A stretch of DNA of 64,000 nt. Origin: Bacteroidota bacterium (GTDB taxonomy: Bacteria; Bacteroidota; Bacteroidia; Chitinophagales; Chitinophagaceae). Below, piece by piece: positions 18,182 through 41,944 of this stretch (the first letter of the stretch is position 1; every line of letters starts with the position of its first letter). The DNA is taken from positions 124,001 to 188,000 of the forward strand of contig JAFDXL010000009.1 of assembly GCA_018267955.1 (NCBI GenBank). Reading direction: 5' to 3'. Under the pieces are notes generated by a model that worked only from the letters and a program-made list of their open reading frames with translations, was not told where the DNA came from and made no database searches. The translations under genes and the position numbers were made by a program.

Positions 18182-18204
18182 CGTTTTTTCTGTTTAAATT
18201 TTAT

Positions 18205-21289: not shown

Positions 21290-21327
21290 CTACAGTATTT
21301 AAGATAATGTATCAACTCCCCGCCATC

Positions 21328-23232: not shown

Positions 23233-23239
23233 CTTTACG

Positions 23240-23431: not shown

Positions 23432-23632
23432 AGCACTAGTTTTCAAATTTTGTTAAAAAACCGTGCTATCAGTTACATTAGCAATTTTAATATTCAATAT
23501 TTGTTTATATAAGACCGATTACTAAGTTATCTTTACCATCTATTCGTTAATTATTAAAAATGTAACGGTTTTCACCCAACGCATCATGTATAGATTCAGT
23601 CTATTATGTTGTAAATCTTTAATACCCGTTAC

Positions 23633-24208: not shown

Positions 24209-24220
24209 AATTTTATCCCG

Positions 24221-26110
24221 ATGGATAAAAACATGATAAATATTGATGACCTGGTGCGGCTAAAATTAGCCGGTGGAGAAGAGAAGGAGCGGCCCGGTGC
24301 CTGGTTGCAAATGAGGGAGCTCCTTGATAAGGAGATGCCCGTGCAGGCCCCGCCGGCAGTATTCAACTGGAGGCGTACGCTCTCTGCTGCAGCCCTGCTG
24401 CTGGCGTTGGGTACCGTAACCATTGGTGGTTACCAGTTATATAATAATAGAAATGCAAACAGCAACACCGGTACCCCGGTGGTAGTTGCTCCTAATATGC
24501 ATGCTATTAATAATGCCCCTGCATCTAACTCTGCTCCTGTAAATAACAACACTACTACCGGTTCTGCATCAACAAATAATACTTCAATAAACAATAACGA
24601 GCCTGGCAATGGCCACGGTAATGAACCACAGCACATAGCTGCTTCATCTGCTACCGGCGCTGCTAATAAAGGAATAGCAAAGAAGCATACCGCTCATCAT
24701 ACAGCTAAAAGTTCTGTTGCGGTTAATAACACCATTGGACAAAACGATGCAACTGATATTTCATCAGCAGATGGTGTAGCAAACAATAAGGCTACAGCCG
24801 CTCAACAGAAAACTCATAAAAAGAATCATTCTAACAATGTGTTTGCCTCTGCCGGTAAGTTACCTGCTAATGGCTTAAATAAGCCTGTAAAACATTCGGG
24901 CAATAACAATGGTACCACTAATGGTATTGCTAAAGGAAATAAAGAAAATAAAAATAATAGCCGTAAGGGTTCAGCCCCTGTAAACAATCCATCCAGCACC
25001 TATACTCCCCCTGTTTATAACACAGGTAATAATGGAGTAACTAACCCTGCAAATTTTGCAGTGAACACGCCTCGCGAAAAAAGGCCGGCTTTAGATTACC
25101 ACAAAACCAATCCACGGTATGTCGACTCTATCAACTTTACCTACGTTCAGGAAAAGAGCCGCAGAGGTGCAAAGCGCATCGATACGATCGACAAAGGTTT
25201 GATGGCTGTTAACCAGAACGAGATTGAACCTGCATCCGGTGCTTCAGAAAATACTGCTGCTGCAAATGCAGAAGTAAATCCTGCTGCAGGCGGCTCTATT
25301 GAAGATGTAAAATTGACAAGAGCTGAAAGGCGTGCTGCAAGAAATAAATACGAGCATGAGTCCATTTTTGAAAGAATGGTAGACAATGCCAAGGTTAATT
25401 TTAACGAAGTGTCTTTCCATCCGGGCTTGATGCTAGGCGTAAGCAGCACAATGGGTAAGTATAACATGTTTGGTATACAAGGCGGATTTTCCGGTTCTCT
25501 TAATCTAAGCGAGCGTTGGGGAATCTTTGCAGAACTGAAATACCTGTATCGCTTTGGTAATGGTAAATCACTTGCCAATAACTATAATAGTGTAGACCAG
25601 GCGCCACCACAGTATATTTCGCCAAACTATTTCCGCTTCACGGTAGATTCGCAGGAGCACTCATTTAATATATCTTCTTCAGGCCTGGTTGAATTACCAC
25701 TTGCAGTTAGATATAGGGTACAGAAAATGAATTTCTTTGCCGGTGTTGACCTCGCTTACAACTTTGCAGTAAACGTAGAAGAAAGGTTTGATAAGCTGCA
25801 TACCTCTTATTACTATGGTAATAATACAGAAAGCCTGCAAAATAACTGGAAGAACAACAACGATCCTAAGCTGACACCTGCTGAATTTGGTAGTCGTTTC
25901 TCCATGGGTTATATGTTTGGTGTAGGCTACCAGGTTTCTCCGGTTATAGGGCTCGACCTCAGGGCTACACAGGTATTCTGGGATAATGGTAAAGTACATT
26001 CTGAAGGTGCATACTTTGTATCTAAGCAAATGTATCGCTCTCCATGTGTACAGTTCAACTTCACCTATAGCTTAATAGGTAACAAAAATGGCCCGATGAA
26101 AGCGAGGTAA
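24221..26110 (+). CDS. Sigma-factor-linked protein: TM segment, Asn-rich linker, outer-membrane beta-barrel-like C-terminus
   Basis: The 629-aa protein has a ~45-residue cytosolic N-terminus (IDDLVRLKLAGGEEKERPGAW), one TM segment at ~48-70 and a long low-complexity Asn/Thr/Ser/Ala-rich stretch at ~72-290. Residues ~390-629 look like an outer-membrane barrel (GIFAELKYLYRFGNGKS, ELPLAVRYRVQKMNFFAGVDLAYNF). This layout, after an ECF sigma gene, is common in Bacteroidota. The N-terminus may act as an anti-sigma element and the C-terminus as an envelope sensor. Its stop codon abuts the end of the convergent transporter gene with no spacer. Confidence 0.78.
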   Translation: MDKNMINIDDLVRLKLAGGEEKERPGAWLQMRELLDKEMPVQAPPAVFNWRRTLSAAALLLALGTVTIGGYQLYNNRNANSNTGTPVVVAPNMHAINNAPASNSAPVNNNTTTGSASTNNTSINNNEPGNGHGNEPQHIAASSATGAANKGIAKKHTAHHTAKSSVAVNNTIGQNDATDISSADGVANNKATAAQQKTHKKNHSNNVFASAGKLPANGLNKPVKHSGNNNGTTNGIAKGNKENKNNSRKGSAPVNNPSSTYTPPVYNTGNNGVTNPANFAVNTPREKRPALDYHKTNPRYVDSINFTYVQEKSRRGAKRIDTIDKGLMAVNQNEIEPASGASENTAAANAEVNPAAGGSIEDVKLTRAERRAARNKYEHESIFERMVDNAKVNFNEVSFHPGLMLGVSSTMGKYNMFGIQGGFSGSLNLSERWGIFAELKYLYRFGNGKSLANNYNSVDQAPPQYISPNYFRFTVDSQEHSFNISSSGLVELPLAVRYRVQKMNFFAGVDLAYNFAVNVEERFDKLHTSYYYGNNTESLQNNWKNNNDPKLTPAEFGSRFSMGYMFGVGYQVSPVIGLDLRATQVFWDNGKVHSEGAYFVSKQMYRSPCVQFNFTYSLIGNKNGPMKAR

Positions 26111-26890
26111 TTATTCCTCGCCCATAGCCGCAGCCTTCATAGCAGCTGTGGTCTCAGGCCCCAGGTAGGCTGCGATACGATGTTCAATAAAGTAAATCAA
26201 TGGCGTTAATATTAACGCCATTGTTGCTTTATAGCTATAGTTTACCAGCCCTATTGCCAGTACTCTTTGATAACTCCAGCCATTACCTATTTTAAAAGCT
26301 ATGAACAGTACTACAAAACTATCTATCAACTGAGATATGATGGTAGAACCGGTGGCACGCAGCCATACCTTCTTCTCCCCGGTTACTTTTTTGATCTTAT
26401 GAAATACCCATACGTCCAATACCTGGCTTACCAGGAAGGCGGTGAGGCTACCTACGATGATCCACATGCCTTGCCCGAATATACCGGAAAACGCTGCCTG
26501 CATATCAGGTATGCCATCAGCAGCGTGGCTGCCTATCCAAAACTCCCTGTTAGCCGGTACTTTTATAGCTGCATAAAACATGATGAAAGCATAAGTGATC
26601 AGGCCTACAGCTATATAAGAGATTCTTCTTACTGCTTTTGGGCCATAGAACTCATTTACTATATCCGTCATTATAAATTCAAGCGGCCATAACAGTACGC
26701 CACATGTAAGCGTATAAGTCAAACCGTTTTCACCCAGCAGGCTAAATGGCTTTGGCTCCATGCCAAACAATCGCTCCAGTGAAAAGAGTTTACCGCCGAT
26801 ACACTCTGCTATCAATGCATTGGCAACAAAGAAAGAAGCCATGAAGATGAAAAGGCGCGTGGCTTTATCATTAAGAATACTACGGATCAT
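26111..26890 (-). CDS. Queuosine precursor transporter (YhhQ/VUT family)
   Basis: The 259-aa integral membrane protein has about six hydrophobic helices. It carries the family stretch FIMTDIVNEFYGPKAVRRISY (positions ~75-95), VSQVLDVWVFHKIKK and SQLIDSFVVLFIAF. The YhhQ/QueT-like family imports preQ0/preQ1 for queuosine in tRNA. No que genes are adjacent. Confidence 0.9.
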   Translation of the reverse strand: MIRSILNDKATRLFIFMASFFVANALIAECIGGKLFSLERLFGMEPKPFSLLGENGLTYTLTCGVLLWPLEFIMTDIVNEFYGPKAVRRISYIAVGLITYAFIMFYAAIKVPANREFWIGSHAADGIPDMQAAFSGIFGQGMWIIVGSLTAFLVSQVLDVWVFHKIKKVTGEKKVWLRATGSTIISQLIDSFVVLFIAFKIGNGWSYQRVLAIGLVNYSYKATMALILTPLIYFIEHRIAAYLGPETTAAMKAAAMGEE

Positions 26891-27004
26891 AATGGATTTT
26901 GTTGACGTAAAACTAATACCTGCAGCTTAATGCTGGTAATTATTAAGCAGCATTATAATATATTGAACTCCTTAACTATATTTACGCTTACAAACCAATT
27001 ATGT

Positions 27005-27226
27005 ATGAGAAAGTTCATGAAATGGACAGGATATATAATCCTCGTCATAGCCCTACTTATTATAGGTATTGTGGGCTTTATTAAGTTTTCTAAGCCCGAT
27101 GTAGGTAAAGCTCCTGACCTGAAAGTGGAGATAACACCGCAAAGGGTAGAGCGCGGTAAGTATCTGGCTAACTCAGTTACACTTTGCATGGACTGCCATT
27201 CCACCAGGAAAATGTTTGTATTATAA
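27005..27226 (+). pseudogene. 5' remnant of a membrane-anchored diheme-type cytochrome c gene
   Basis: Starting at the ATG at 27005, 73 codons encode an N-terminal anchor (MRKFMKWTGYIILVIALLI), the family segment ITPQRVERGKYLANSVTLC and the first heme site CMDCHSTR (CxxCH). The frame then turns to KMFVL and stops at 27226, exactly where the AT-rich lanthipeptide island begins. Intact relatives have roughly 300 residues and a second heme site. The missing C-terminal end is found 6.6 kb away at 33794-33904. The remnant cannot make a working diheme cytochrome. Confidence 0.85.
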
Positions 27227-30200
27227 TCAGTTATTTTTAGAGCGAACAATTAAAGAAGTATAATATTTCTCTAAAAAATGATATACGACCAATTCATATT
27301 TACGTTGTTGTGTTATAAACAATCTATTCATTAACATATGAAGAAGGCTGTGCAATAAATTGTCCGTATCTAAATTTTTATTTTTTAATAATTTTGATAT
27401 GGCTAATTTGTTTTGGTCTGAGCGATATTTTAAAATTTCGTGAAAAACTGGATTGTTGTTTTTTTCTAACAGAATTGGAATCGTCTTTTGATAATTCCTG
27501 TATTTTTTATTTAGCTGTTTTTGTAAATCCAAGGATCCTCCAAACTCATTAAAGAAACTAACCTGCATTTTTTTTAGCAATGTGTGTTTGCTTATTATAC
27601 TGTAGCCGAAATCACCTAACAAATAATCAATGCTTAGCATAGAGAAACAAACAAAAGATCTTTCATCATTTAAATATTGTGAATAATTCAAAAAATTTAT
27701 AGCTGATATACTATCATAAAAAAACAAAGATTCAACATTCTCAATATTGGCTGCTCCATATCTTTCTAGTTCCCTTGAGTATGTGTCCATCAATATTTTG
27801 TCAATTAATCCATTAGAAACAAATTCTGCAATAACATCATTAAATTTCGATTGCAAGGTTATCTGTCTAGCAGTATCTTCATTATAAAATCTGATCCTTA
27901 AATGAGGGAAATCGTCGAAATAACGAACAAAGAAGAATTTTTCAAATGTGTTAGCGGCAAGCCCATTATTAATAAAACTAGGTAGGATTGTTGTCAAAAT
28001 TTTTTCAATTACCTTATTTCCAGCGTAAATTTTGTAATATATCCATTTGCTATGCGGCAAAAATTTCCGTTTAACGTTATTATTATTATCGATATCACGC
28101 AGGCGTGACAAATTGTTTGTGGAATCGTTATATATGGGAATAATCAATTCGTTTGTGAATAAATTTTTGTTTTCATCGGCAACAATCAAATTTTGATCGT
28201 GAAACAATAACTCTTCGACATCAATCTCTTCGTTATTTTTAGCGTGTTTAAGAAGAATTTGAAGATGTTCAGAATTATTCAAATCAAGTACTAATTCATT
28301 ATCAAATTCTCTTAATGTTATTTCCTTGGGGAAATTGTTCTTAGATAAGTATTCTTTGAATAAATTGATAGAATTCTTTTGCTCTAACAGTATGTTTTGA
28401 ATATCAGTTTTTTTTATTTTCCACCTGGCTTTTTTTAAAATTAAATTTTTATAAACAACCCGTGGGAGAAAACTTCTGTCTGCTAGCAGCCCCCAATCCC
28501 AAACAGAAATTTGTTGTTTAGTTTGGGATTGTAAATCACACAAAAACTTATATATAGGTAAGACATTATTGGAATAATTATGGGCTGAACTTAAACGAGG
28601 GATAATACGTTTATTATTTTTTTTGTATTTTAAGTATACTTCATTTTCTACAATGCTAACGGTAATATCATTTATTTTTATTTGTTTTTCTTCTTCAATA
28701 CCTGAATTGCCTAAAAATGTTATCTCATAATCTCTAAGCACAGGACGACATAATATATTGCCTAATCTTGTTTCTGGAAGGTGAACTATTTCAGCATATA
28801 TAACATCAGGATTATTTATTTCGTCCTCAACGACTAATTCATTTGCTAAATCTCTTAATTTTTTATCATGGGAGATGAATCTACCTAGCAGATTCAATGC
28901 GGAAGGGCCGGTTGTATATTGTAAGTTAAATTTAAAATTATTGCTTGTAAGATCATTCCCAGCTTTTAGAAGATTACCAAGTATATATAAACTACTAGAA
29001 ATTTTAGTGTCATCAATATTACAAACCAAAGACAAATTATCATCAGTCAAATCAATTTCTGATTGATTTAAAGTTAAATAATCATGATATTTTTTTAATG
29101 AAAATTTTTGAAGTTGTGTAAGTTGAGATGTTTGTAAAGTTGAAGATGTTATCCTTAAGTCATCGATTAAATCACTTTCACCCCTAGCTTCTTTATCATT
29201 TGCGTAGCCTACACCTAAATCTAAGTCTAAGGCTAATGGGAGTGGAACCTCTGCATCTTCAAACTTTAACTTGAATTTTTTAACAAATGTTTCTAAATCA
29301 GCATTAATTATGGGTGTGTTTAAAAATCTCAAATCCCAAACCTGAGTAGCAATATTCTCAATGATTTTTCGATCGATTATTAACGATTTTGCTGACAATC
29401 CTAAGTCAACTTGCAACAAGTTTTTTGCCGCATCACCTAATCCTAATAGCAATTTGATTTTTTCTTCTACATTTTGGTAACTTTTAATTCCTTGAAATTT
29501 TGTATTCAAGGAATCAAAAATTTCATTCAATGTTTTTTGTTCATTATTAATCCCATGCAAAGAATTGATTTTTGATAACAATATTTTAAATGGATCATCT
29601 CCGGTAATAGTTGGCTGTAAAGATGAAACGAGAAGTTGCGCTTCAATCATTTGGTTAAGAAAGCCGAATGCGTCCGTCTCAGAAACACCTTCAAGAGTCT
29701 GTAGTAAAGTTGAAAGTTCATTTAGAGTAGTACCGTTCTTTGCCTTATTAATAACCGAATCTATATATCTTGTTTGAGGGACGGAATTAACTTGGTATTT
29801 TCTTGTATTTAATTGAGTCGTATACTCAATATATCGAAAAGTATTCCCTACTTTATAAAGGCTGTTATTTGCTAAAAACTTAATTTGAAATTTAGCTTTC
29901 TCGCTAATTAAATCTGCGATTTTATGCAAATAGGCCATGTCTATTCTCACGTTTCTAGAATGTGTCTCGCTATCATTGATGATAATTTCAGTTTTATCTC
30001 CTACGCTCAGCACACCAACACCGGCAAATGTCGCAAAAGGAGTACATCTAAAACAGCTCCTAATCCAATACTTTAAATATGATTGTCTTTTTTTCTCTGT
30101 TAGATGCTCATGCTTTATTAACTCCATCCAAAACTCTGGAGATGATAAATATATTCCTTCACTAAAAATTCCATTTGATTTCTCTGTCAAATTGCATAGG

Positions 30201-30256
30201 TTCCTAAAAGGTTGAATTGGCACCCGTATCAATATGTGGGAAGATACATGCAACAT
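27227..30256 (-). CDS. lanB: Class I lanthipeptide dehydratase, full-length LanB
   Basis: The protein is about 1009 aa. The N-terminal glutamylation part (residues ~1-690) includes FWMELIKHEH, FRCTPFATFAGVGV, LGNILCRPVLRDYEI and SVWDWGLLADRSFLPRVVYKNLIL. The C-terminal elimination part (~725-1005, SpaB_C type) has FFFVRYFDDFPHLRIRF, TYSRELERYGAANIE and LLHMLMNRLF, matching the Arg/Glu/Arg/His residues needed in NisB. LanB uses glutamyl-tRNA to dehydrate Ser/Thr of the precursor. The enzyme looks intact and is not split. The start is the ATG at 30256, 3 bases after the lanC stop; a TTG at 30262 is also possible. Its last codon lies at the edge of the broken cytochrome gene. Confidence 0.93.
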   Translation of the reverse strand: MLHVSSHILIRVPIQPFRNLCNLTEKSNGIFSEGIYLSSPEFWMELIKHEHLTEKKRQSYLKYWIRSCFRCTPFATFAGVGVLSVGDKTEIIINDSETHSRNVRIDMAYLHKIADLISEKAKFQIKFLANNSLYKVGNTFRYIEYTTQLNTRKYQVNSVPQTRYIDSVINKAKNGTTLNELSTLLQTLEGVSETDAFGFLNQMIEAQLLVSSLQPTITGDDPFKILLSKINSLHGINNEQKTLNEIFDSLNTKFQGIKSYQNVEEKIKLLLGLGDAAKNLLQVDLGLSAKSLIIDRKIIENIATQVWDLRFLNTPIINADLETFVKKFKLKFEDAEVPLPLALDLDLGVGYANDKEARGESDLIDDLRITSSTLQTSQLTQLQKFSLKKYHDYLTLNQSEIDLTDDNLSLVCNIDDTKISSSLYILGNLLKAGNDLTSNNFKFNLQYTTGPSALNLLGRFISHDKKLRDLANELVVEDEINNPDVIYAEIVHLPETRLGNILCRPVLRDYEITFLGNSGIEEEKQIKINDITVSIVENEVYLKYKKNNKRIIPRLSSAHNYSNNVLPIYKFLCDLQSQTKQQISVWDWGLLADRSFLPRVVYKNLILKKARWKIKKTDIQNILLEQKNSINLFKEYLSKNNFPKEITLREFDNELVLDLNNSEHLQILLKHAKNNEEIDVEELLFHDQNLIVADENKNLFTNELIIPIYNDSTNNLSRLRDIDNNNNVKRKFLPHSKWIYYKIYAGNKVIEKILTTILPSFINNGLAANTFEKFFFVRYFDDFPHLRIRFYNEDTARQITLQSKFNDVIAEFVSNGLIDKILMDTYSRELERYGAANIENVESLFFYDSISAINFLNYSQYLNDERSFVCFSMLSIDYLLGDFGYSIISKHTLLKKMQVSFFNEFGGSLDLQKQLNKKYRNYQKTIPILLEKNNNPVFHEILKYRSDQNKLAISKLLKNKNLDTDNLLHSLLHMLMNRLFITQQRKYELVVYHFLEKYYTSLIVRSKNN

Positions 30257-30258
30257 TA

Positions 30259-31431
30259 TCAATCATTTATCATAAGGCAATAGTCCCATGAGAAGTCATT
30301 AGTAATATAGCTATATAATACTAGTCCTATTCCTGCGATACCTTCTAAAATGCCAAAGTCGTTTTGATGTATTTTAAGCATACTGTTATATTTTTTAAAT
30401 CCCGCTAGGCCATCTTGGTATTTAGCAAATTCTAAGGTCTTTTTTATCCAAAATGCGGATGCAAGTTTATATTCCGTTTCTCCAGTATAATTCCACATTT
30501 TGTTATATATGTGTGCTGCCCCTGCGCTCCCATGACATATTCCGCCATCATAAATCAATGTATCTTCAACTTTTGTTCTTTGGGTTGACTGAATTAAGAG
30601 GTTTGAAGCGAAAAGAAGTAATTCATTATCTTCAAGGGTAATCGCAGCTTGATATAAAATTAACCCTATACCTAAGTCACCGTAGCACCAAGCAAGACGT
30701 TTGCTTACTTGCAATGGTTCGTCTTTTACATAAATAGATGGGAAAGCGCAGTTGTCTATAGGATTGCTTGCTACATTTAGCATAAATTTAATTATTATGT
30801 TTGATATCAGCTTTGCATGGTTTTCACACACCTTAAATTTGTAACACGATAAACAAAATTTTAAAATACTAGGTAGGCCATGTGCCAAACCCAAGTTTAT
30901 CTTATTTTTTTCAACAACTTGATTAATGTGATCGTAGTTATGAAAGAGAAAATTAGTATCAGTAGTAGTTATTTCTGATAATTCCTTGAATAATTGATTG
31001 AAATAGATAAAATCGGTTGGTACAGTGGAATGTAAAATATAATAGGCAATACCTAACGATCCATGCAGGAAATCATAGTTTCCGTTCTTAAGAAGGGTTA
31101 AGGAAATATGCTTCAAATGACTGTCGTCTGAGGACAACATATCATAATCATATTTTGACAACATCCCATTCTTAAATAAATTAGAAAAATAATAGTTTAC
31201 TCCTGCTTTGCCATTACTGAATGACGGATGCCATGACGTGTTAAAATTTATACATAAGTCTTCAATGGTTTCTTCTAAATAGGCCGAAATATCAATATTT
31301 ATAAATTCGGAATATTTTTGAATAAAAAGCATTTCGCCACATTTCCCGGTCAGAAGTCCTAGAGCACTAAGTTTTTTGTTTTTTATTAAGGTGTTATAAA
31401 TATCCTCCATTTTTTCCTTAATCGCATACAT
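30259..31431 (-). CDS. lanC: Lanthionine cyclase, LanC
   Basis: LanC adds Cys thiols to dehydrated residues to form (methyl)lanthionine rings. The protein is 390 aa (an ATG at 31410 would shorten it by seven). The zinc ligands are present: Cys in LAWCYGDLGIGL and Cys-His in GGICHGSAGAAHIYNKM. The other conserved His are in FLHGSLGIAYYIL and LAHGLPSIL, and GIAGIGLVLYSYI marks the last toroid helix. It lies directly after the precursor gene (19 bases) and is tightly linked to lanB. Confidence 0.93.
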   Translation of the reverse strand: MYAIKEKMEDIYNTLIKNKKLSALGLLTGKCGEMLFIQKYSEFINIDISAYLEETIEDLCINFNTSWHPSFSNGKAGVNYYFSNLFKNGMLSKYDYDMLSSDDSHLKHISLTLLKNGNYDFLHGSLGIAYYILHSTVPTDFIYFNQLFKELSEITTTDTNFLFHNYDHINQVVEKNKINLGLAHGLPSILKFCLSCYKFKVCENHAKLISNIIIKFMLNVASNPIDNCAFPSIYVKDEPLQVSKRLAWCYGDLGIGLILYQAAITLEDNELLLFASNLLIQSTQRTKVEDTLIYDGGICHGSAGAAHIYNKMWNYTGETEYKLASAFWIKKTLEFAKYQDGLAGFKKYNSMLKIHQNDFGILEGIAGIGLVLYSYITNDFSWDYCLMIND

Positions 31432-31449
31432 TGAATCTTATTCTTAGAA

Positions 31450-31719
31450 TTAAAATGTTGGGTAAGTCCATGTATCTTTACACATAGGGCCGGCTGTTCC
31501 ACAGAAAAAACAGGAATTTTGTGTTGGAAAACAATCGGCATTGGTGCACCATGGACCACTATTAGTAAATCCATTAGAAATTGCAATGGGATTATTTATC
31601 CCAGATATTTTCTCTTTATTCAATTCTAATTTCCTGCTTACCACAGGCTGGGCATTAGTCACATTAGTGGTTACACCATACCCTATTTGATCTAAATTTA
31701 TTCCTTCTAAAATATTCAT
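31450..31719 (-). CDS. lanA: Lanthipeptide precursor peptide, Bacteroidota L1a-like leader
   Basis: The 89-aa peptide has a leader of about 45-50 residues with RKLELNKEKISGINN at 29-43. This resembles the KL-L-K-T-I leader box I recall from Bacteroidota class I lanthipeptides, which LanB would recognise. The likely core, after about residue 48, has five Cys (58, 63, 70, 73, 80) among about ten Ser/Thr: PWCTNADC, NSCFFCGTAG, PMCKDTWTYPTF. There is no double-Gly cleavage motif. It lies immediately upstream of lanC and lanB. Ring pattern, cleavage site and activity are unknown. Confidence 0.82.
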   Translation of the reverse strand: MNILEGINLDQIGYGVTTNVTNAQPVVSRKLELNKEKISGINNPIAISNGFTNSGPWCTNADCFPTQNSCFFCGTAGPMCKDTWTYPTF

Positions 31720-31740
31720 AGTTGTATATTTAAAGATTTT

Positions 31741-32538
31741 TTAACATGCACAATTGATGACTTCATGTCCTTTAACCAAAATATTAAATGTATCTGATAC
31801 TTGAGTGGAAGCTACTAAAGAGTATCCCGGTTGAAGATAGATTTGCAATGTTGCCATACTTCTAAATGCTGGCTGTACAGAACTTTGTGTAGTGGCAGGA
31901 ATTTGCATTTCTGTGATTAAAAATTTAGTAGTGCCATTATCTATAAACAAACGAATCATTCCCTCGCTAGTATTGCCGGTAGATTTAATATTTATAGCTT
32001 CAATAACCCCACCGCCATTTAGAGCACCCGATTGTGCTGTAAATAATGTAACGGTAGGTCCAGTTCCATTGAGATTGCTATTTCCAGTATTTACTTGTTT
32101 AATTTCAGTTCGAGCAAAGTTTCTTAAATCATCGCAATCACTTCCATTGACACAATCACACTGAAACCAGTTTGATCCATTAGCTGATATATTAAAAGTG
32201 TCAGCGTTTTGAGTCGATGCTTTCAATGTATAGCCAGGATTCAACGTAATTTGTTCTTTGAGTGTAAATTCGAAGGATTTTTCCACTGCAGTTTGAATTG
32301 AGGCAGGAACATAAATCTCTTTATATAATAAGGTGTTACTTCCAGCATTATCAATAAATAATCTAATCATTCCCTCGGAAGTATTTCCTTGAGATTTTAT
32401 AGTAATTTGATCTATATTGGTACCTGACAAACCAGCAGTAAGTACAGTGCCCATAACTCCAGTGCCATTTAAGTTAGGATTTGGACTAGAGATTGTTACT
32501 AATCCCGTGTTAGCAAATGATTGTTTTTTTGTGCACAT
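31741..32538 (-). CDS. Island protein with two tandem CxC-ended domains, unknown function
   Basis: The 265-aa protein consists of two similar domains (1-137 and 138-265). Shared blocks are NLNGTG, the near-identical GNTSEGMIRLFIDN, then E.QIPA or EIYVPA, LxPGY.L.ASTQ, and DTFNI. Domain 1 ends in CDC (127-129) plus a further Cys at 135; domain 2 ends with CAC as the last three residues. There is Cys at position 2 (MCTKK). There is no signal peptide or TM segment. The beta-rich pattern reminds me of small domains in phage tail or virion-associated proteins, but this is memory, not a search. It lies 21 bases upstream of the lanthipeptide precursor and is likely cotranscribed. Confidence 0.8.
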   Translation of the reverse strand: MCTKKQSFANTGLVTISSPNPNLNGTGVMGTVLTAGLSGTNIDQITIKSQGNTSEGMIRLFIDNAGSNTLLYKEIYVPASIQTAVEKSFEFTLKEQITLNPGYTLKASTQNADTFNISANGSNWFQCDCVNGSDCDDLRNFARTEIKQVNTGNSNLNGTGPTVTLFTAQSGALNGGGVIEAINIKSTGNTSEGMIRLFIDNGTTKFLITEMQIPATTQSSVQPAFRSMATLQIYLQPGYSLVASTQVSDTFNILVKGHEVINCAC

Positions 32539-32551
32539 AAAAAGAGGTTGA

Positions 32552-32571
32552 TTTATTTATTTATTTATTTA
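32552..32571. repeat. (TTTA)5 simple repeat
   Basis: Five exact TTTA units lie in the 46-base gap between the two CxC-domain genes, 13-32 bases upstream of the ATG at 32538 (TAAA on the coding strand). Slippage here would change spacing in the leader, not a reading frame. Confidence 0.8.
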
Positions 32572-32584
32572 ATATTGGTTAGCG

Positions 32585-32986
32585 CTACTTTACATTGCAA
32601 TCGCACATTTCGTAATTAGTCCCGTAAGCGATTAGGCTAAAATTTTCAGACAGTTGCGTGGAAGCAGCTAAAGAATATCCAGCTTTTAAATTTATGCCTA
32701 ACTCAACGGTCGCAGCATATGATTGCACTACTGAGGTTGGAACAGTTGTAGGTATCATTATTTCCTGAAATAGATAGTAGACTGAAGAAAGGTCTTTGAT
32801 AAACAATCGTATCATTCCTTGATTATTGCTTACTAAAGATTTAATTGTAAGACTGTCAATCATAGTTCCATCATTCGCACCAGTAATAATATCAACGATA
32901 GAGCCAGTTCCATTAAGATTAGGATTAGCTGTTGTCAACAAAGCCATGCCTGTATTTGGCGTTATTTTTTTATTGGAGTTACACAT
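32585..32986 (-). CDS. Island protein with one CxC-ended domain, unknown function
   Basis: The 133-aa single-domain relative of the downstream two-domain protein shares NTGMALLTTANPNLNGTG, GMIRLFIKD, EIMIPTT, LKAGYSLAASTQ and a terminal MCDCNVK (CxC at 128-130). Cys is again residue 2 (MCNSNK). No signal peptide or membrane segment is present. It is the first gene of the minus-strand operon and starts 139 bases from the divergent regulator. I do not recognise a function. Candidate roles are a scaffold or carrier for the lanthipeptide, or an alternative substrate of LanB/LanC. Confidence 0.8.
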   Translation of the reverse strand: MCNSNKKITPNTGMALLTTANPNLNGTGSIVDIITGANDGTMIDSLTIKSLVSNNQGMIRLFIKDLSSVYYLFQEIMIPTTVPTSVVQSYAATVELGINLKAGYSLAASTQLSENFSLIAYGTNYEMCDCNVK

Positions 32987-33007
32987 AGATATTAATTTTT
33001 GTTTTTG

Positions 33008-33015
33008 TAAAACTA
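33008..33015 (-). promoter_or_regulatory. Candidate -7 element of the lanthipeptide operon
   Basis: On the minus strand the bases read TAGTTTTA (TAnnTTTA, one off the consensus). No TTTG is found at -33, which would fit a promoter needing an activator. The nearest TACGTA box would then be centred about 40 bases upstream of the start of transcription. Confidence 0.35.
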
Positions 33016-33034
33016 TATTTATACTTTTATTTCA

Positions 33035-33096
33035 TCTATACGTAGCGATAGGTATTTTTTAACCCTTTACTCATTGTCTATACGTAGGCATACGTA
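33035..33096. promoter_or_regulatory. Triple TACGTA operator in the divergent promoter region
   Basis: TACGTA occurs at 33039-33044, 33081-33086 and 33091-33096. The first two are inside an 11-base direct repeat TCTATACGTAG (33035-33045 and 33077-33087) with starts 42 bases apart, about four helical turns; the third is 10 bases further. The palindromic core and phased spacing suit a dimeric helix-turn-helix regulator, most simply the NarL/LuxR protein encoded next to it. Confidence 0.6.
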
Positions 33097-33125
33097 TTTG
33101 CATACTAACTGAAAACCATTTTGCT

Positions 33126-33764
33126 ATGAAAACACAAGGTCTAATTAGGCTTGGCATATGTGACGATCATCCAATTTTCCGAGAAGGAATTATCGCTACA
33201 CTCAAATCTTTTAATTGTTATAGTATAGACCTCATAGTATCTAATGCAACTGAATTGACGATATCTCTCAGTAGAGCAAAAATACTTCCTCATGTATGCT
33301 TGATAACAATCAGTACATTATGTGATGCATATTTTCACGAAGCACTAAAAATGATAAAATATCGTTGGCCAACGGTTAACGTTATAGTTATATCGACATT
33401 TGAAGGGGACTATATCGTTAAATTGTTATTGCAAAAAGGTGCAAAATCCTACTTTAAAAGAACTGTTGATAGAAACGAACTTCATGCAATTGTAATGTCT
33501 GTATTTTATAAAGAATATTTCCAGCTAGAAAGTGATACTTGTAAAAAGCCACAGCCTATCACGGAAGCACCTCTGCTTTCTTTGAAAGAAATGGAAATAA
33601 TTCGTTTTATATCGAAAGGATGGGACAACCGGATTATAGCAAATGAATTACACATTTCTATTAGAACCGTACAAACTCATTGTAATAATATTTACAAAAA
33701 GCTATCTTTACGCACAAAGGAGCAATTAATTGTTTTCGCTTTCAAAAATGGTTTATGCGACTGA
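33126..33764 (+). CDS. NarL/LuxR-family regulator with a non-phosphorylatable receiver domain
   Basis: The 212-aa protein has a receiver-like domain (1-125) and a C-terminal LuxR/NarL helix-turn-helix (~150-208: LSLKEMEIIRFISKGWDNRIIANELHIS, then RTVQTHCNNIYKKL; landmarks only). The receiver keeps the acidic pair Asp13-Asp14 and Lys111, but the phospho-acceptor position is Thr61 (CLITIS instead of LLDI). It probably responds to something other than phosphorylation. No kinase is adjacent. It is divergent from the lanthipeptide operon across a region with three TACGTA boxes and is likely its pathway regulator. Confidence 0.88.
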   Translation: MKTQGLIRLGICDDHPIFREGIIATLKSFNCYSIDLIVSNATELTISLSRAKILPHVCLITISTLCDAYFHEALKMIKYRWPTVNVIVISTFEGDYIVKLLLQKGAKSYFKRTVDRNELHAIVMSVFYKEYFQLESDTCKKPQPITEAPLLSLKEMEIIRFISKGWDNRIIANELHISIRTVQTHCNNIYKKLSLRTKEQLIVFAFKNGLCD

Positions 33765-33793
33765 ACCAGTTATATAGTTAGTGGTGCTGCTAT

Positions 33794-33904
33794 ATGTATG
33801 GCAAAATGAAAGAAAGCGACTTATCTGCTATATACGCTTACCTCCGTACTGTAGATAAACGAAGTAATAAAGTAGTGAAATGGCAGCCCGGTGCCAAAAT
33901 CTGA
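33794..33904 (+). pseudogene. 3' remnant of the interrupted cytochrome c gene
   Basis: These 36 codons read MYGKMKESDLSAIYAYLRTV, then DKRSNKVVKWQPGAKI and stop at 33904. This is the typical C-terminal end of Bacteroidota diheme cytochromes c (axial-ligand Met followed by LxAIYAYLRT). In-frame stop TAG lies 13 bases upstream (33779-33781), so the piece cannot be translated as part of a larger protein from the island. Together with the 5' remnant at 27005-27226 it represents one gene from which the middle is lost. Confidence 0.78.
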
Positions 33905-33950
33905 TAAATAAAACAGAAGCCCGCTATCAGCGGGCTTCTGTTTTATTTAT
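33904..33950. terminator. Long bidirectional terminator behind the cytochrome remnant
   Basis: Perfect 22-bp stem (ATAAATAAAACAGAAGCCCG continuing to CT) with a 3-base ATC loop and T-rich arms on both strands. It serves the former cytochrome gene, now the island regulator, and the convergent acetyltransferase gene. Confidence 0.93.
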
Positions 33951-33955
33951 TAATT

Positions 33956-34525
33956 CTAGATATCCCAATCTTCTACCAGCGTATTGTATAGCTGGTAGGT
34001 GTTTGCAAGCGTCGCTTCATTTTCATGTTCATAATAATTCCAGATGAATACCCGGTCGCCCATGCTGAAGGCCCGCTCACCAATATAGGAAAAGCCTGTT
34101 TTTTGCAATACATTATCTGATGCATCATTACCTGCAATGGTTCGGGCGCACACACTATCGAGCAGCAGGCTGTCAAATGCATAATTAATAAGTTCGCTAA
34201 CGATCTCGGTCGCCAGTCCTTGTCCCCAATATTCGGGCATCAGCAGGTATCCGATCTCGTATAAGTTTACTTCAGGAATAAAGCAATAACCTGCGCGTCC
34301 AAGAAATTTGCCGTTTTTGTCTGTCACTACACAAAATCCTACACCATGCTCATCATGGTGTGCAATATAATTGTCTAGTCTTTCGCGTATTTGTAGATCT
34401 GTTTCTGTACCAAAGTGAGGTGGGATAAATTCCATTACCTTAATAGAAGTGCAAAGTTGCTTCAGCAAGCCGAAGTCGTTTTCCATAAACGGACGCATGA
34501 TTGTGCGTTTGGTTTGAACTAACAT
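33956..34525 (-). CDS. GNAT-family N-acetyltransferase (RimJ/RimL-like)
   Basis: The 189-aa protein shows the RimJ/L-type start TKRTIMRPFMENDFGLL and the acetyl-CoA binding motif LMPEYWGQGLATEIV (Q-x-x-G-x-A), then the C-terminal NVLQKTGFSYIGE. It transfers acetyl groups to an amine; the substrate is not predictable. It is outside the island and shares the terminator with the cytochrome remnant. Confidence 0.88.
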   Translation of the reverse strand: MLVQTKRTIMRPFMENDFGLLKQLCTSIKVMEFIPPHFGTETDLQIRERLDNYIAHHDEHGVGFCVVTDKNGKFLGRAGYCFIPEVNLYEIGYLLMPEYWGQGLATEIVSELINYAFDSLLLDSVCARTIAGNDASDNVLQKTGFSYIGERAFSMGDRVFIWNYYEHENEATLANTYQLYNTLVEDWDI

Positions 34526-34799
34526 AGCTTTAGTCTTTACATACTCTAAGTTAATAAATTTTCACAATACATGAAAATAGTTTTTTATGTGTGGATTAAT
34601 AATAAATAATTAACGGATGTTTTATATATGTATGAAAAGTGTGGTAGAAATTAGAGGTATAAAGATGGAAGGCGTTTAGCTCATCTATCACACATTTGTC
34701 AAAAACATAAGTATATATCGTCTTAGCATTTCTTTAATCAAAACTGGCATAGTTTTTTGTCCGTATATGTATATACGTTAACCTGTAAAAAGGTATTAT

Positions 34800-35234
34800 A
34801 TGCGATTCAGGATTTTAATGGTAACAAATAAAGAAGGAAGCCAATATGCAGATGCTGAAATGCTCAAGGAACGGGGCTTCCTGGTATATAATTGCACCGA
34901 CACGGTAGTAAACGGGATGATATCTGAGGTAAAACCCGATGTTGTTTTTATCAACCCTGAATCTCCCGACCTCCACATAACCAAAGTGTACCATAGTCTT
35001 TTAAAAGATAAAGAGCTGGCAAATATTCCGGTTATCTATGCGTTGAATGAAGATGATCTTTACCTGGTAAGTTGCCAGAGAAATTCGCGTAATAAAAGGA
35101 ATGTCACCACCGACAATGTAATGGATGGTATAAGAATGTCATTGGCACCTGCTATAGACAAGCGTGCAAAAGAACCGCTGAAACTGTTAAGCAGGCAAGT
35201 AGACCTTTGGCCGGCAAATGTACATGTAGCTTAG
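34800..35234 (+). CDS. Hypothetical protein with a receiver-like fold lacking the phospho-Asp
   Basis: The 144-aa soluble protein begins RFRILMVTNKEGSQYADAEMLKERG, followed by VKPDVVFINPESPD where a receiver would have PDVVLLD-MP, and NIPVIYAL. The order of strands and helices resembles a response-regulator receiver. Asn replaces the phospho-acceptor Asp and the N-terminal acidic pair is missing. It is probably a pseudo-receiver; the role is unknown. About 274 noncoding AT-rich bases lie upstream with no gene I can see. Confidence 0.65.
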   Translation: MRFRILMVTNKEGSQYADAEMLKERGFLVYNCTDTVVNGMISEVKPDVVFINPESPDLHITKVYHSLLKDKELANIPVIYALNEDDLYLVSCQRNSRNKRNVTTDNVMDGIRMSLAPAIDKRAKEPLKLLSRQVDLWPANVHVA

Positions 35235-35530
35235 CGTATTTTATATCCCGGTTTTTGCTCCAGGTAATTACAGTCGCTCACGTCACCAACTCTCAATCTG
35301 AATGGTATTTTGGTGATCTTTTCCAGTTTATTTTCCTGCCTGCAAAAGAAGGGAAGTCTTTGCGTGGCATAGTAAGCTGGTAGTGGCGCGAATAAGAAAG
35401 CCCTATTCGCATTTATTGTATATATGGACTGCTTCTTTGGGTGATCGTTTTTTAAAGAGTCTGCCATATTCTGGGCAATTGCAGCATTACAAAACGAACC
35501 TGTGAGCAATAAGAAGCATACTTTCTTCAT
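35231..35530 (-). CDS. Small secreted hypothetical protein
   Basis: The ~99-aa protein begins with a signal peptide (MKKVCFLLLTGSFCNAAIA) from the ATG at 35530. That ATG overlaps the doxX stop by one base (TGATG), so it is translationally coupled to doxX. The mature ~80 residues have two Cys (FFCRQE, SDCNYL) and no motif I recognise. Confidence 0.7.
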   Translation of the reverse strand: MKKVCFLLLTGSFCNAAIAQNMADSLKNDHPKKQSIYTINANRAFLFAPLPAYYATQRLPFFCRQENKLEKITKIPFRLRVGDVSDCNYLEQKPGYKIR

Positions 35531-35937
35531 CACGATTTATCAATAGAATAGGAGCCGGGCCCCATAATAAATAATGCAAGAAATACTGTTGCTAGTTCTA
35601 TTGCTTCTGTGGCATCTGAGAGTCCACGCGCGCCCGTTAATAATTTTGCTGTTGCCACTATCATATTAAACAGCAACAGAAAACAAACAGGTCGAAAGAA
35701 TAATCCAAGTAATAAAAACAGTCCGCCAATGCTTTCTGTTATAGCGCTCATAAATCCCCAAAATGTATAGCCAAAGTGTATGCCTACCAGCTCTATTGCG
35801 CTACCCAATTTTTCCCATTTTTCCGGGCCGCCCGATAGTTTGGGATACCCATGCAGCATCATCATAACGCCGATACCGATGCGAAGTAGCAACAAAGCTG
35901 TATTGGTATATTTACCAAGTTTAGTAAAAAGGGGCAT
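35530..35937 (-). CDS. DoxX family membrane protein
   Basis: The 135-aa protein has four hydrophobic helices. It carries the family features LLLRIGIGVMMMLHGYPKL, FWGFMSAITESIGGLFLLLGLF and a C-terminal MGPGSYSID. DoxX-type proteins are associated with redox and thiosulfate or quinone processes in some organisms; the role here is unknown. It overlaps the next gene by one base. Confidence 0.88.
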   Translation of the reverse strand: MPLFTKLGKYTNTALLLLRIGIGVMMMLHGYPKLSGGPEKWEKLGSAIELVGIHFGYTFWGFMSAITESIGGLFLLLGLFFRPVCFLLLFNMIVATAKLLTGARGLSDATEAIELATVFLALFIMGPGSYSIDKS

Positions 35938-36019
35938 TCAGAAAAGGTTGATCAAGTTGTGTAAATGAATAGAAAGCAATTTACAAAACTTCGGGTTAAA
36001 CCGGCCAACAGCAGCTGCA

Positions 36020-36193
36020 TTATTGTAACCTCGTCGCAGCGTACCTGGCACACTCAATATTCATAGAATGAAAATGCCTGCAATGCTTGCAGTAAGCATT
36101 GCTCCCGGCAACATTGTTGCTTCTTGTGGCCGACGGAATCATCATAACGCCACCCGTCAGTAAAAAAACTGAAATTGTTATGAGTAATTTCAT
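36020..36193 (-). CDS. Putative small secreted protein
   Basis: The 57-residue frame from the ATG at 36193 has a plausible signal sequence (MKLLITISVFLLTGGVMMI) and a CKHCRHFH motif followed by one more Cys. No family is recognised; the frame is short and could be fortuitous. A different frame over the same bases has no signal sequence and is less convincing. Confidence 0.4.
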   Translation of the reverse strand: MKLLITISVFLLTGGVMMIPSATRSNNVAGSNAYCKHCRHFHSMNIECARYAATRLQ

Positions 36194-36225
36194 AGCTGTA
36201 ACCTTTTTGACTCCGAACAAAATAT

Positions 36226-37317
36226 TTAAATATTTTCATATTTCATAGTGTTTTTCCGCGGTAGTAACAATCTTTTAATATGCAGGTTGGCCGGATGCTC
36301 GAAGAGCAGGTAAATGATAATGGATAGAATGAGCGTTATACAGAATTCACTTACTACAAGGACGTCATACCTAATGCCGGTGAAGAGATTGGTAAACGCA
36401 TGTGCGGGCCCTATGATAAGCATATGCAACAGGTAAAAGGTATAAGAACTTTTGCCGAAGAGATTCATTGAATTTCCTGACAGAAAACGAGATACGGCTG
36501 TGTTTTCTGTGCACAAACCTCTATAGAACACCACAACGGGAAAGGGAAGTGCAATATTAAATAGCATTTGCGTAGTCATAAGCCTTATTGTGCCATGCAA
36601 TAGCAAGGTGCCGCCAATGCAAAGGATCACAAGTAAGATGCCCGTTAGTCCCATGTAAGTGTAATTGCCGGTTTTTCGAACACTGATCTTGCCTGTGAGG
36701 AAGCGCATTCCCAGGGCTACACCCATGTAAAATTCAAAGAACCTACCTATGTAAGTAAGCATGAACATGTAATGGTTGGCGACAAAAACATTGGGCTTAT
36801 TATCCCTTAAAAGCAAAATGGTTGAAAGTACCACTATGTAGATCACCAACGGAGACCACACTCCGTATTTTCTGATCAGTAAAAAAATGATGGGTGCAGA
36901 TAGGTAAAAACATTCTTCTACCGTTAAAGACCAGCTGGGGCTGATGGCAATATCTCCGTAATTGAAAAGGCTATGTGTCAGGGTATAATTTTCAACGATG
37001 TAGCCCAGGTTATGCGGAGCGGATGTGATCAATACGATGGTTACCAGGAAAAAGTACACCGGGTAAATACGTGCGAAACGCCTGATAAAATATTTTGCAA
37101 ACCAATCTTCAGAAAATGAAAAGTCGTTGTAGTATCTGTAAGTAATGAGAAACCCGCTAAGTACAAAAAAAAGCGATACCCCGGAGCTGAAGCCTGCCTG
37201 CAGGTATTGAAAAAATGGAAAGTAAAGGTGCAATGGCAAATGGTTAAAGAAAACCATAAAGGCTGCTATAGCCCTGATGCCCGTCAATGCTCTGAATTGT
37301 TGTTGGTCGTACGCCAT
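36226..37317 (-). CDS. Acyltransferase 3 family (OafA/YrhL-like) membrane protein
   Basis: The 363-aa protein has about ten TM helices. It begins QFRALTGIRAIAAFMVFFNHL, with the conserved family Arg and the His in helix 1, then FFVLSGFLITYRYYNDFSF and RRFARIYPVYF. WSLTVEECFYL is also conserved. The family O-acylates sugars of LPS, exopolysaccharide or antibiotics at the inner membrane; the acceptor is not predictable. No polysaccharide genes are adjacent. Confidence 0.92.
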   Translation of the reverse strand: MAYDQQQFRALTGIRAIAAFMVFFNHLPLHLYFPFFQYLQAGFSSGVSLFFVLSGFLITYRYYNDFSFSEDWFAKYFIRRFARIYPVYFFLVTIVLITSAPHNLGYIVENYTLTHSLFNYGDIAISPSWSLTVEECFYLSAPIIFLLIRKYGVWSPLVIYIVVLSTILLLRDNKPNVFVANHYMFMLTYIGRFFEFYMGVALGMRFLTGKISVRKTGNYTYMGLTGILLVILCIGGTLLLHGTIRLMTTQMLFNIALPFPVVVFYRGLCTENTAVSRFLSGNSMNLFGKSSYTFYLLHMLIIGPAHAFTNLFTGIRYDVLVVSEFCITLILSIIIYLLFEHPANLHIKRLLLPRKNTMKYENI

Positions 37318-37401
37318 CCCTGTTAGTAGCTAACAGGAACACAGAAGATTTTTTAGAAAACGGCAGTAGTAAACATAGCGGTTGTAATAAAAATACAAAA
37401 A

Positions 37402-37917
37402 TCAATTGGATTTTAGTAATCCATAATAATTCAGATCTATTAGCGTGCCATCGCTCTTCATGTGATCCTCGCGCAAAATGCCTTCCAGCTTAAAACCATT
37501 CCTTAGCACCAGGTTATTGCTTTTTATATTATCTATACCTATCCTGCAGTAGATCTTATTAAGGCCCAGGTCATTAAATGCAATGTTGATGGTTTCTTTT
37601 ATAGCCTTGTTCATGATCCCTTTGCCCTCTTCATCTTTGTCAATAAAATATCCCAGCTCACATTTACGGGTTTTAGGGTCTATATTTTTAATAAAAACAA
37701 GGCCTATGATTTTTGCTTCGTCGTTCTCTACCAGTAAAGTGTACAGTTCACCTTTTTCCAGCAATACCTGGTACATCTTTATAGATTCAGCGGTGATGTC
37801 GGGTGTCGCTGTTTTCTCCAGTGTAACAGGGAAATAATCGGCAAGGCGATCTTTGTTCTTTTGGATCAGGTCATAAAAGGCATCCCGGTCACTGATGGTG
37901 ATGTGTCTGAATTTCAT
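37402..37917 (-). CDS. GNAT-family N-acetyltransferase
   Basis: The 171-aa RimL-type protein has the start MKFRHITISDRDAFYDLI, the core strand CELGYFIDKDEEGKGIMNKAI (acetyl-CoA site EGKGIM) and NLVLRNGFKLEGILRE near the C-terminus. It lacks signal or membrane parts. The substrate is unknown. Confidence 0.88.
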   Translation of the reverse strand: MKFRHITISDRDAFYDLIQKNKDRLADYFPVTLEKTATPDITAESIKMYQVLLEKGELYTLLVENDEAKIIGLVFIKNIDPKTRKCELGYFIDKDEEGKGIMNKAIKETINIAFNDLGLNKIYCRIGIDNIKSNNLVLRNGFKLEGILREDHMKSDGTLIDLNYYGLLKSN

Positions 37918-37985
37918 GTGACTCTCTCTTAGTTGCCACTAATTTACTAATTAACATTTAGATATATATTATAATCTACATTAAA

Positions 37986-38020
37986 AAAAGAACCTCATCC
38001 GTTACGGATGAGGTTCTTTT
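37986..38020 (-). terminator. Intrinsic terminator of ndk
   Basis: Perfect 16-bp stem (AAAAGAACCTCATCCG/CGGATGAGGTTCTTTT) with a TTA loop; a seven-T run follows on the minus strand. It is 20 bases past the ndk stop. Confidence 0.92.
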
Positions 38021-38039
38021 AAGAAAGTTTAATTACTAA

Positions 38040-38456
38040 TTAGAATTGTTCCAGTCCGTTAAAGAAGAAGCTGCCTTCTATAGCCGCGTTTTCGTCGCTA
38101 TCAGAACCGTGTACCGCGTTTTCGCCTATTGATGTAGCATATTTTTTGCGGATAGTGCCTTCTTCAGCCTGTGCAGGGTTAGTAGCACCTATCAGCGTAC
38201 GGAAATCGGCAACAGCATTGTCTTTTTCAAGAATAGCTGCTACGATAGGGCCGCTGCTCATAAATTCGCAAAGCTCGCCGTAAAAAGGGCGCTCTTTATG
38301 CACTTCATAAAATTTACCGGCCTGGTCCATAGTAAGGCGGGTATATTTCATAGCTACGATACGGAAGCCTGCTGCGTTGATCATTTGCAGGATATTTCCT
38401 ATGTTGCCGGCCTTAACTGCATCCGGCTTGATCATTGTGAAAGTACGATTAGACAT
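38040..38456 (-). CDS. ndk: Nucleoside diphosphate kinase
   Basis: Ndk transfers the gamma-phosphate between nucleoside triphosphates and diphosphates. The 138-aa protein has the start [17 protein letters not shown], the Arg/Thr nucleotide site region [17 protein letters not shown] and the catalytic His in NAVHGSDS. Length and motifs are normal. A TACCTTTG -7 box lies at 38488-38495 on the minus strand. Confidence 0.97.
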
Positions 38457-38487
38457 ATAGATTTTGAATATTTCTGATTTGACGGCG

Positions 38488-38495
38488 CAAAGGTA
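38488..38495 (-). promoter_or_regulatory. TAnnTTTG -7 promoter element of ndk
   Basis: On the minus strand TACCTTTG, 31 bases before the ATG at 38456. There is no clear -33 element. Confidence 0.5.
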
Positions 38496-38602
38496 GGTTA
38501 AATTTGACTAGGTAACGCTGTTTTTTTGGCTTTTCACTGTGTATTACTAATGTTTAACTGTAAATTAGCGCCTTCCTGATTATAGGGGGTTACTTAAGAT
38601 TA

Positions 38603-39607
38603 TTGATGTTACCAATACAAGACGTACTACCATTATTACAAACACCGCGCAGGATATTTATTACAACGCATCATAAGCCCGATGGCGATGCTATTGGTAG
38701 TATCATGGCGCTGTATCATTACCTCACGGCCAAAGGTCATAAGGCTACACCGGTTATCACCAGTGAAATGCCCGATTTCCTTACCTGGATGCCGGGAGCC
38801 GAGGATCATATTATCAATTACGAAGCGGAATCAAAAAAGGCAGAAGCGGCTTTAAATGATGCAGAGATCATTTTCGGCCTCGATTTTAATGATTTCAGCA
38901 GGACCAAGCACCTGGAGCAACAGCTGGCAAACGCATCGCAGCCCAAAGTGCTGATAGATCATCACCTTTTTCCCAAGCCGGTTTGGGATTATGGTATCAG
39001 CATACCTGACAAAAGCAGCACTTGCGAAATGGTGTATGATTTCATCAACCTGTGCGAAGACAATGCTTTGATCTCAGTGCCGATGGCTGAGTGCCTGTAT
39101 ACCGGCGTTATGACGGATACTGGTTCGTTCAGGTTCCCGGTAACGACATCTGCAGTTCACCTGATGGTTGCAGACCTGATATCTAAAGGGTTGGAACATA
39201 GCCACATACACGAAAAAGTGTACGATTCCTGGAGTATTAAGCGCATGCAATTCCTGGGCTATGTATTGCTGGAGAAGATGGAGATATTTCCTAAATATAA
39301 TGCAGGGCTTATTTGCCTTACCCGCAAAGACCTGAAACTATTTGAAGTAACTACAGGCGATACGGAAGGGTTAGTTAATTATCCTTTAAGTATTGGTTCC
39401 GTAAGATTTGCTACCCTGATAACGGAGCGTAGTGATGAAGTAAAGCTCTCTTTCAGAAGCAAGGGCGACTTTGATGTAAGTGACTTTGCCCGAAAACATT
39501 TTAACGGCGGAGGACACTTTAATGCGTCCGGCGGAAGGTCTACTTCTTCTTTTCTTGACACAGTATCTTATTTTAAGCAAATTTTATCCGATATTCACCC
39601 CCGATAA
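38603..39607 (+). CDS. DHH/DHHA1 phosphoesterase, NrnA-like (oligoribonuclease / pAp phosphatase)
   Basis: The 334-aa protein has the DHH-family metal motifs FITTHHKPDGDAIGS, IIFGLDFNDF, VLIDHHLFP and the Asp in TGVMTDTGSFRF, plus the DHHA1 substrate motif FNGGGHFNASGG. NrnA-type enzymes degrade short RNA oligonucleotides and dephosphorylate 3'-phosphoadenosine 5'-phosphate in the cytosol. It is first in a plus-strand run that continues with four FKBP genes, 11 bases away. Confidence 0.9.
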   Translation: MMLPIQDVLPLLQTPRRIFITTHHKPDGDAIGSIMALYHYLTAKGHKATPVITSEMPDFLTWMPGAEDHIINYEAESKKAEAALNDAEIIFGLDFNDFSRTKHLEQQLANASQPKVLIDHHLFPKPVWDYGISIPDKSSTCEMVYDFINLCEDNALISVPMAECLYTGVMTDTGSFRFPVTTSAVHLMVADLISKGLEHSHIHEKVYDSWSIKRMQFLGYVLLEKMEIFPKYNAGLICLTRKDLKLFEVTTGDTEGLVNYPLSIGSVRFATLITERSDEVKLSFRSKGDFDVSDFARKHFNGGGHFNASGGRSTSSFLDTVSYFKQILSDIHPR

Positions 39608-39618
39608 TTTAAAAATCA

Positions 39619-40521: not shown

Positions 40522-40544
40522 GGCATTAACTGCTCGCAGTATCA

Positions 40545-41429: not shown

Positions 41430-41449
41430 CTTACTAAAAAGCGTACATA

Positions 41450-41917: not shown

Positions 41918-41944
41918 TTTTCAGAAGTAAATATTTAAAAATAG

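Follow-up and report, generated by a model that had tools for sequence, protein, structure and literature searches.

The window, a stretch of 64,000 nucleotides, encoded two proteins (p133 and p265) built from a predicted jelly-roll domain with many phage relatives, and both lay at the head of a cassette that also specified a class I lanthipeptide. The identity of the domain and the existence of the cassette are well supported. With more reserve, we read p133 and p265 as domesticated phage jelly rolls that may act as modular scaffolds or carriers on which the peptide cargo can be exchanged. On the minus strand the genes followed the order p133, p265, lanA, lanC and lanB:

33126..33764, plus strand: LuxR/NarL-type response regulator, divergent, within the cassette (PF00196 6e-14, PF00072 5e-07)
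32585..32986, minus strand: p133 (133 aa), single predicted jelly-roll domain; Cys2; CDC close to the C-terminus at 32597-32605
31741..32538, minus strand: p265 (265 aa), two predicted jelly-roll domains; Cys2; CDC behind domain 1, CAC terminal
32164..32514, minus strand: p265 domain 1 (residues 9-125), limits from the profile
31759..32115, minus strand: p265 domain 2 (residues 142-260), limits from the profile
31450..31719, minus strand: lanA candidate, 89 aa, leader LELNKEKISGI (residues 31-41), core with five Cys
30259..31431, minus strand: lanC, lanthionine cyclase, 390 aa (PF05147 LANC_like 5e-37)
27227..30262, minus strand: lanB, full-length dehydratase, 1011 aa (PF04738 Lant_dehydr_N 1e-123; PF14028 Lant_dehydr_C 3e-59)
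27205..33793, no strand: whole cassette, acquired, 6589 bp, GC about 0.32, missing at the same site in sister genome G970
26930..27226, plus strand: remaining 5' part of a cytochrome c gene that the cassette truncates (from the G970 comparison)

A sequence-only reading had placed three copies of one domain, carried by two ORFs, before lanA, lanC and lanB, and both the coordinates and alignments against shuffled sequences agreed. The copies (about 120 residues; one in p133, two in p265) were identical at 55/129, 50/118 and 60/123 residues in pairwise comparison, with alignment scores of 274, 208 and 264 against shuffle maxima of 56, 60 and 53 (500 shuffles each). Pfam models recognised both a LanB dehydratase and a separate LanC cyclase, which identify the cluster as class I. 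The LanA candidate had the Ser, Thr and Cys in its core that such a precursor needs, but matched no NCBIfam or Pfam model; its leader fitted LxLxKx5L, given as the leader motif of Bacteroidetes class I LanAs in the available text of PMC7268733, apart from an Ile replacing the final Leu. Elsewhere, the precursors of loci L026 and L075 matched this motif exactly and that of L062 did not. The cassette held six likely genes, all remaining ORFs of at least 60 aa overlapping these six. No transporter or protease gene, common but not obligatory in such clusters, was seen by eye among the ORFs of 27205-33793. Response regulators resembling that of the window occurred near four other domain loci (L017, L019, L023 and L060).

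Each window copy was followed by a CxC motif (CDC at p133 128-130 and p265 127-129, CAC at p265 263-265) and both proteins began with Met-Cys, as first read from the sequence; like that reading, we saw no signal peptide on either protein by eye. All nine cysteines of p133 and p265 were at the ends or in the linker, a placement that would suit subunit cross-links or metal binding. CxC also followed every domain copy at L017, L026 and L060. The linker of most WxYP-type proteins contained CC, several of these proteins had CxC at the N-terminus, and some other bacterial members had cysteines inside the domain as well. Altogether CxC or CC was present in 21 of the 25 bacterial domain proteins listed, as against 0/70 distinct whole viral proteins, which averaged 0.41 Cys. 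Disulfide ties are not general in the family, because the domain proteins of L062 and L075 carried neither CxC nor CC.

The domain had been called undescribed, and profile searches of Pfam, NCBIfam and PHROGs and a search of PDB sequences indeed named no family for it. The matches that did come up were short or weak, and none was accepted as homology: DUF6324 (21 bits over 17 residues, cut-off 27), phrog_26741 (7e-4, no known function) and a PDB sulfatase chain (E 0.53). AlphaFold models had a mean pLDDT of 92.7 for p133 and 85.2 for p265, and that of p133 comprised eight strands, which the fold search classed as a jelly roll. The nearest solved structure was 7dou, a trimeric cement protein from Helicobacter phage KHP40 (TM 0.53, E 7e-5, 10% identity); behind it Foldseek listed jelly rolls of many kinds, among them Bacillus Ena subunits, TNF and proteins of satellite plant viruses. 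At TM values of about 0.5, such matches to solved structures indicate the jelly roll, a common fold, and not a function. The best predicted viral structure was much closer (TM 0.82, 36% identity).

Sequence relatives were found in phages. Ten of 50,697 phage records matched by tblastn, the best being gp55 of Pseudanabaena phage Pam2 (UQS94935.1, 126 aa; E 4e-11 by tblastn, 3e-35 by profile), which adjoins a gene annotated as tail fibre; homology to this gp55-type family spanned the whole domain. The other nine were Rhodobacter phages at E 0.07-0.2, and the one copy read lay two genes downstream of a 'GTA TIM barrel-like domain protein'. A search with gp55 recovered 252 pattern-matching stretches of viral contigs, 240 of which were confirmed; 80 viral loci were retained (L133-L212), each with a single domain copy. 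Viral scans with p265 or the WxYP-type alignment as query gave no matches, and the L075 protein retrieved two viral loci (L228 and L229). Surroundings were listed for six viral loci, and seven neighbours from L146, L157, L177 and L200 were scanned against PHROGs. A tail fibre gene lay directly upstream at L146 (4.5e-32) with a tape measure farther upstream (3e-11). The upstream gene at L177 best matched families of unknown function, with tail fibres at 2e-6, and the gene before it encoded an amidase (4e-14). The remaining three scanned neighbours had no PHROGs match, nor had the scanned viral family members a match in PHROGs or Pfam. In an unrooted FastTree phylogeny of 111 distinct domains, 41 bacterial sequences split from 70 viral ones with support of 0.996; the two sets were gathered with different queries, and the Rhodobacter copy was admitted at a lax threshold. 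Judged by sequence similarity, the bacterial domain and this widespread phage protein are truly related. The initial likening to phage virion or tail domains was thus borne out by the Pam2 gp55 homology, the 240 confirmed viral stretches and the predicted jelly roll.

In bacteria the domain was sparse. Within the family of the window it was found in 10/294 genomes of a first sample and, by profile search, in 14/394 genomes of a second, overlapping sample. Order-wide and phylum-wide samples yielded 3/396 and 2/395 genomes, both counts including the genome of the window; the second genome of the phylum-wide sample, G770, was dropped as unproven (a partial match of 44 positions, 22 bits, 2.9e-4). 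Two carrier genera had the domain in 3/11 and 2/5 genomes, every one already found in the family survey, and a search of plasmid records gave no match. Domain-bearing contigs included Chitinophagaceae, Taibaiella and Flavipsychrobacter assemblies. Because the viral family is broad and the bacterial spread narrow, we infer that transfer ran from phage to bacterium.

Comparison with G970, a sister genome of the same genus, indicates that the window cassette is a recent acquisition. G970 aligned at about 91% to window positions 18202-27204 and 33794-43990; between these flanks it had 676 bp within a cytochrome c gene where the window had 6589 bp, with a GC content of about 0.32 against 0.41. The remnant at 26930-27226 was 92% identical over 93 residues to the intact 353-aa protein of G970 (L225 8734-9795). 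G970 had its own domain cassette at another site, with grasp-with-spasm enzymes; taken with the insertion at the present site, this shows a unit that behaves like a cassette open to exchange. The cassette ends had no terminal repeats longer than 9 bases, no tRNA was found at 20000-44000, and no recombinase was seen among the window ORFs.

We read the neighbourhoods of 18 loci that had both a domain protein and downstream sequence. L226 (downstream sequence missing), the fragments L063, L064 and L077 and the weak L034 were left out, and L067, L070-L074 and L076, whose contigs are identical with those of L023, L024, L019, L020, L022, L021 and L025, were counted once. RiPP maturases of three unrelated kinds occurred in 9/18 loci: LanB with LanC in four (window, L026, L062 and L075), a grasp-with-spasm ATP-grasp protein with a SPASM protein in four (L017, L018, L060 and L069), and a radical-SAM/SPASM enzyme with Cys-rich short ORFs in one (L020). 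All four ATP-grasp proteins scored under the curated 230-bit cut-off (196-225), as did one of the four SPASM proteins under its cut-off of 175, and the L020 enzyme was under cut-off among the 25 best of 74 families. At all nine loci the domain genes came first, ahead of the genes for the precursor and its enzymes and co-oriented with them. The other nine (L019, L021, L022, L023, L024, L025, L061, L068 and L227) had no recognised maturase. Four of these encoded large proteins of 876-1038 aa (L021 10648-13281, L022 10294-13410, L068 8687-11665 and L227 2082-4712) without a visible signal peptide, and two of the three scanned (L022 and L068) gave weak propeller-repeat matches. Proteins of L023 (247 aa, 11565-12308) and L061 (277 aa, 8599-9432) had glycine-rich hydrophobic C-termini that looked bacteriocin-like by eye, and similar stretches were noted at L025 10236-10520; all three ORFs lay directly behind the domain gene. 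Behind lanB at L075, a JmjC/cupin protein (7388-8584) is perhaps a tailoring hydroxylase.

The 147 family genomes used for comparison contained 52 LanC and 26 GRASP_w_spasm matches; given these numbers, the estimated chance of finding either at 4/18 loci was 1.5e-10 for LanC and 9e-12 for GRASP_w_spasm assuming independence, values that are too optimistic because the loci share ancestry. Counted in reverse, 2/52 LanC and 0/26 GRASP_w_spasm matches stood at domain loci known from the family surveys; therefore neither pathway needs the domain. The sequence-only reading had coupled the domain to the lanthipeptide pathway and had named its occurrence mainly without LanB/LanC as grounds for giving up that coupling. 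This is what the neighbourhoods revealed, LanB with LanC standing at 4/18 loci; what survives is a broader link to RiPP cassettes.

Many WxYP-type loci shared a further feature, a tag of the form L-N/H-S-x-x-D(-G) at the start of the first downstream ORF. It was present in 8/19 first downstream ORFs (L019, L022, L023, L024, L061, L064, L068 and L069; L064 is included in this count) and in 0/307 of the remaining ORFs at these loci. Seven members had been seen before the pattern was drawn, which makes it post hoc, and the small ORFs of L068 and L227 came afterwards; L068 carries KLNSPTDG and L227 carries LFSSPTDG, which falls outside the counted pattern. At L069 the tagged ORF (L069_12) sits immediately before the grasp-with-spasm enzymes. 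The small tagged ORFs of L022, L024, L068 and L227 each had one CxC. Across the eight tagged loci and L227, the tag was common to otherwise dissimilar proteins, small and large. None of the four LanB/LanC loci had it, the window LanA included. Because maturase chemistry differs among loci and the tag marks first downstream ORFs, the domain is tied to peptide cassettes generally and not to lanthipeptides in particular.

We read p133 and p265 as domesticated phage virion-type jelly-roll proteins that stand unchanged at the front of a mobile cassette, while what follows them is exchangeable: a small peptide or protein, often with its maturation enzymes. In the window LanB and LanC would make this cargo, a class I lanthipeptide. 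We propose that the one- and two-domain proteins would join into an assembly by way of their jelly rolls, in the window lineage perhaps tied by the cysteines at domain ends and in the linker, and that this assembly would bind, carry or display the cargo, perhaps to antibacterial ends. Since the family looks phage-tail-derived and recurs beside several unrelated peptide-modifying pathways, p133 and p265 probably serve as a common component for carriage or delivery. A more specific version is doubtful as a whole: a disulfide-tied jelly-roll particle or fibre into which interchangeable peptide toxins would be loaded for delivery, partly by way of the N-terminal tag as a docking signal. The toxins of such a mobile, modular cassette system would include lanthipeptides, graspetides, radical-SAM peptides and bacteriocin-like proteins, a range about which we are equally doubtful.

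Alternatively, the jelly rolls could be an adhesion or target-binding module that binds a sugar or the surface of another cell on the outside and forms no carrier. The viral relatives stand near tail genes where neighbours could be named, and the sugar-binding N-terminal domain of BC2L-C is among the Foldseek matches; however, this likeness is at fold level only, the phage relatives' own role gives no guide, and no signal peptide was visible by eye, so we regard adhesion as rather unlikely. An intracellular helper, holding the precursor for the maturases or protecting the producer by immunity or sequestration, would explain why domain genes lie ahead of precursor and enzymes in the nine maturase loci. 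We consider it improbable: the partner enzymes (LanB/LanC, ATP-grasp/SPASM, radical SAM) are unrelated, half of the loci have none that was recognised, and one would expect a dedicated helper or immunity protein to differ from product to product. The phage homology might instead point to part of a contractile tail-like particle or to a prophage remnant, but this very improbable reading is largely refuted: no other phage gene, structural ones included, was seen by eye among the ORFs around the cassette, and the contractile sheath PF04984 was found in 3/14 domain genomes (2 over cut-off) and not in the window's genome, which also makes a contractile tail unlikely as an export route. Least credible is the idea, raised in the sequence-only reading, that these Ser/Thr-rich, CxC-ended neighbours of LanB/LanC are themselves substrates with CxC as lanthionine donor: CxC follows lineage and not pathway (L062 and L075 lack it, the grasp-with-spasm loci L017 and L060 have it), so the idea loses its main support, the domain is confidently predicted to be folded, and p133 and p265 lack the LxLxKx5(L/I) leader motif that LanA has, as well as the FxLD motif.

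The carrier reading can be set beside several known systems. The phage gp55 family resembles the bacterial copies in sequence (profile E 3e-35) and in one-domain length; its members are single-domain and, where neighbours could be named, lie near tail genes, whereas the bacterial copies are often doubled, have CxC or CC in most cases where domains end or join, and stand beside peptide cassettes, those of the window not being among phage structural genes (by eye). With Bacteroidota class I lanthipeptide clusters, pinensin and others, the window shares LanB, LanC and a LanA-like precursor. According to the available text of PMC7268733, such clusters are numerous in Bacteroidetes and pinensin has a split LanB, in contrast to the full-length LanB of the window. 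Relative to these clusters, no C39 protease or ABC transporter gene was seen in the cassette, and two phage-type jelly-roll proteins were additional. The available text of PMC7268733 and of PMC9248904, which treats the pinensin clusters, contains no mention of a jelly-roll protein of this kind; we agree with the sequence-only reading that the domain proteins are not standard for class I clusters and that a structural role is plausible. Grasp-with-spasm graspetide clusters (TIGR04192/TIGR04193) contribute enzymes to four domain loci, including one in the sister species of the window, but in the sample of 147 family genomes all 26 GRASP_w_spasm matches lay away from the domain loci known from the family surveys.

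Bacillus endospore appendages (Ena) also consist of jelly-roll subunits, tied by Cys10/Cys11 of an N-terminal connector (available text of PMC8619143). Foldseek lists Ena1C, Ena2A and Ena3A, a likeness of fold only (TM about 0.5) with no common sequence family, all Pfam families being under cut-off. Ena pili offer a working parallel, not a family assignment; Chitinophagaceae are not known to form spores.

The usual description of a RiPP cluster names a precursor, maturases, a protease and a transporter. In the present cassettes a phage-related protein is the fixed element and the RiPP chemistry varies; the kinds of component are known, and this combination of a fixed protein with changing peptide chemistry is a new kind of arrangement as far as checked. 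In the open-access literature searched, no report was seen that links RiPP cassettes with this domain or with a phage jelly roll, a weak negative limited to that library. Were the carrier or delivery role true, it would give Bacteroidota a new way to deploy peptides without exporters of their own. The domain would then be a handle for RiPP precursors missed by genome mining, which could be sought beside it, and possibly a protein scaffold to display modified peptides. Two minor observations concern the surroundings of domain genes: short XRE-like HTH genes (by eye) lie just upstream at L020 (8820-9083), L026 (8996-9238) and L060 (11085-11348), and four FKBP-like proline isomerase genes (by eye) follow one another at 39619-42940 of the window.
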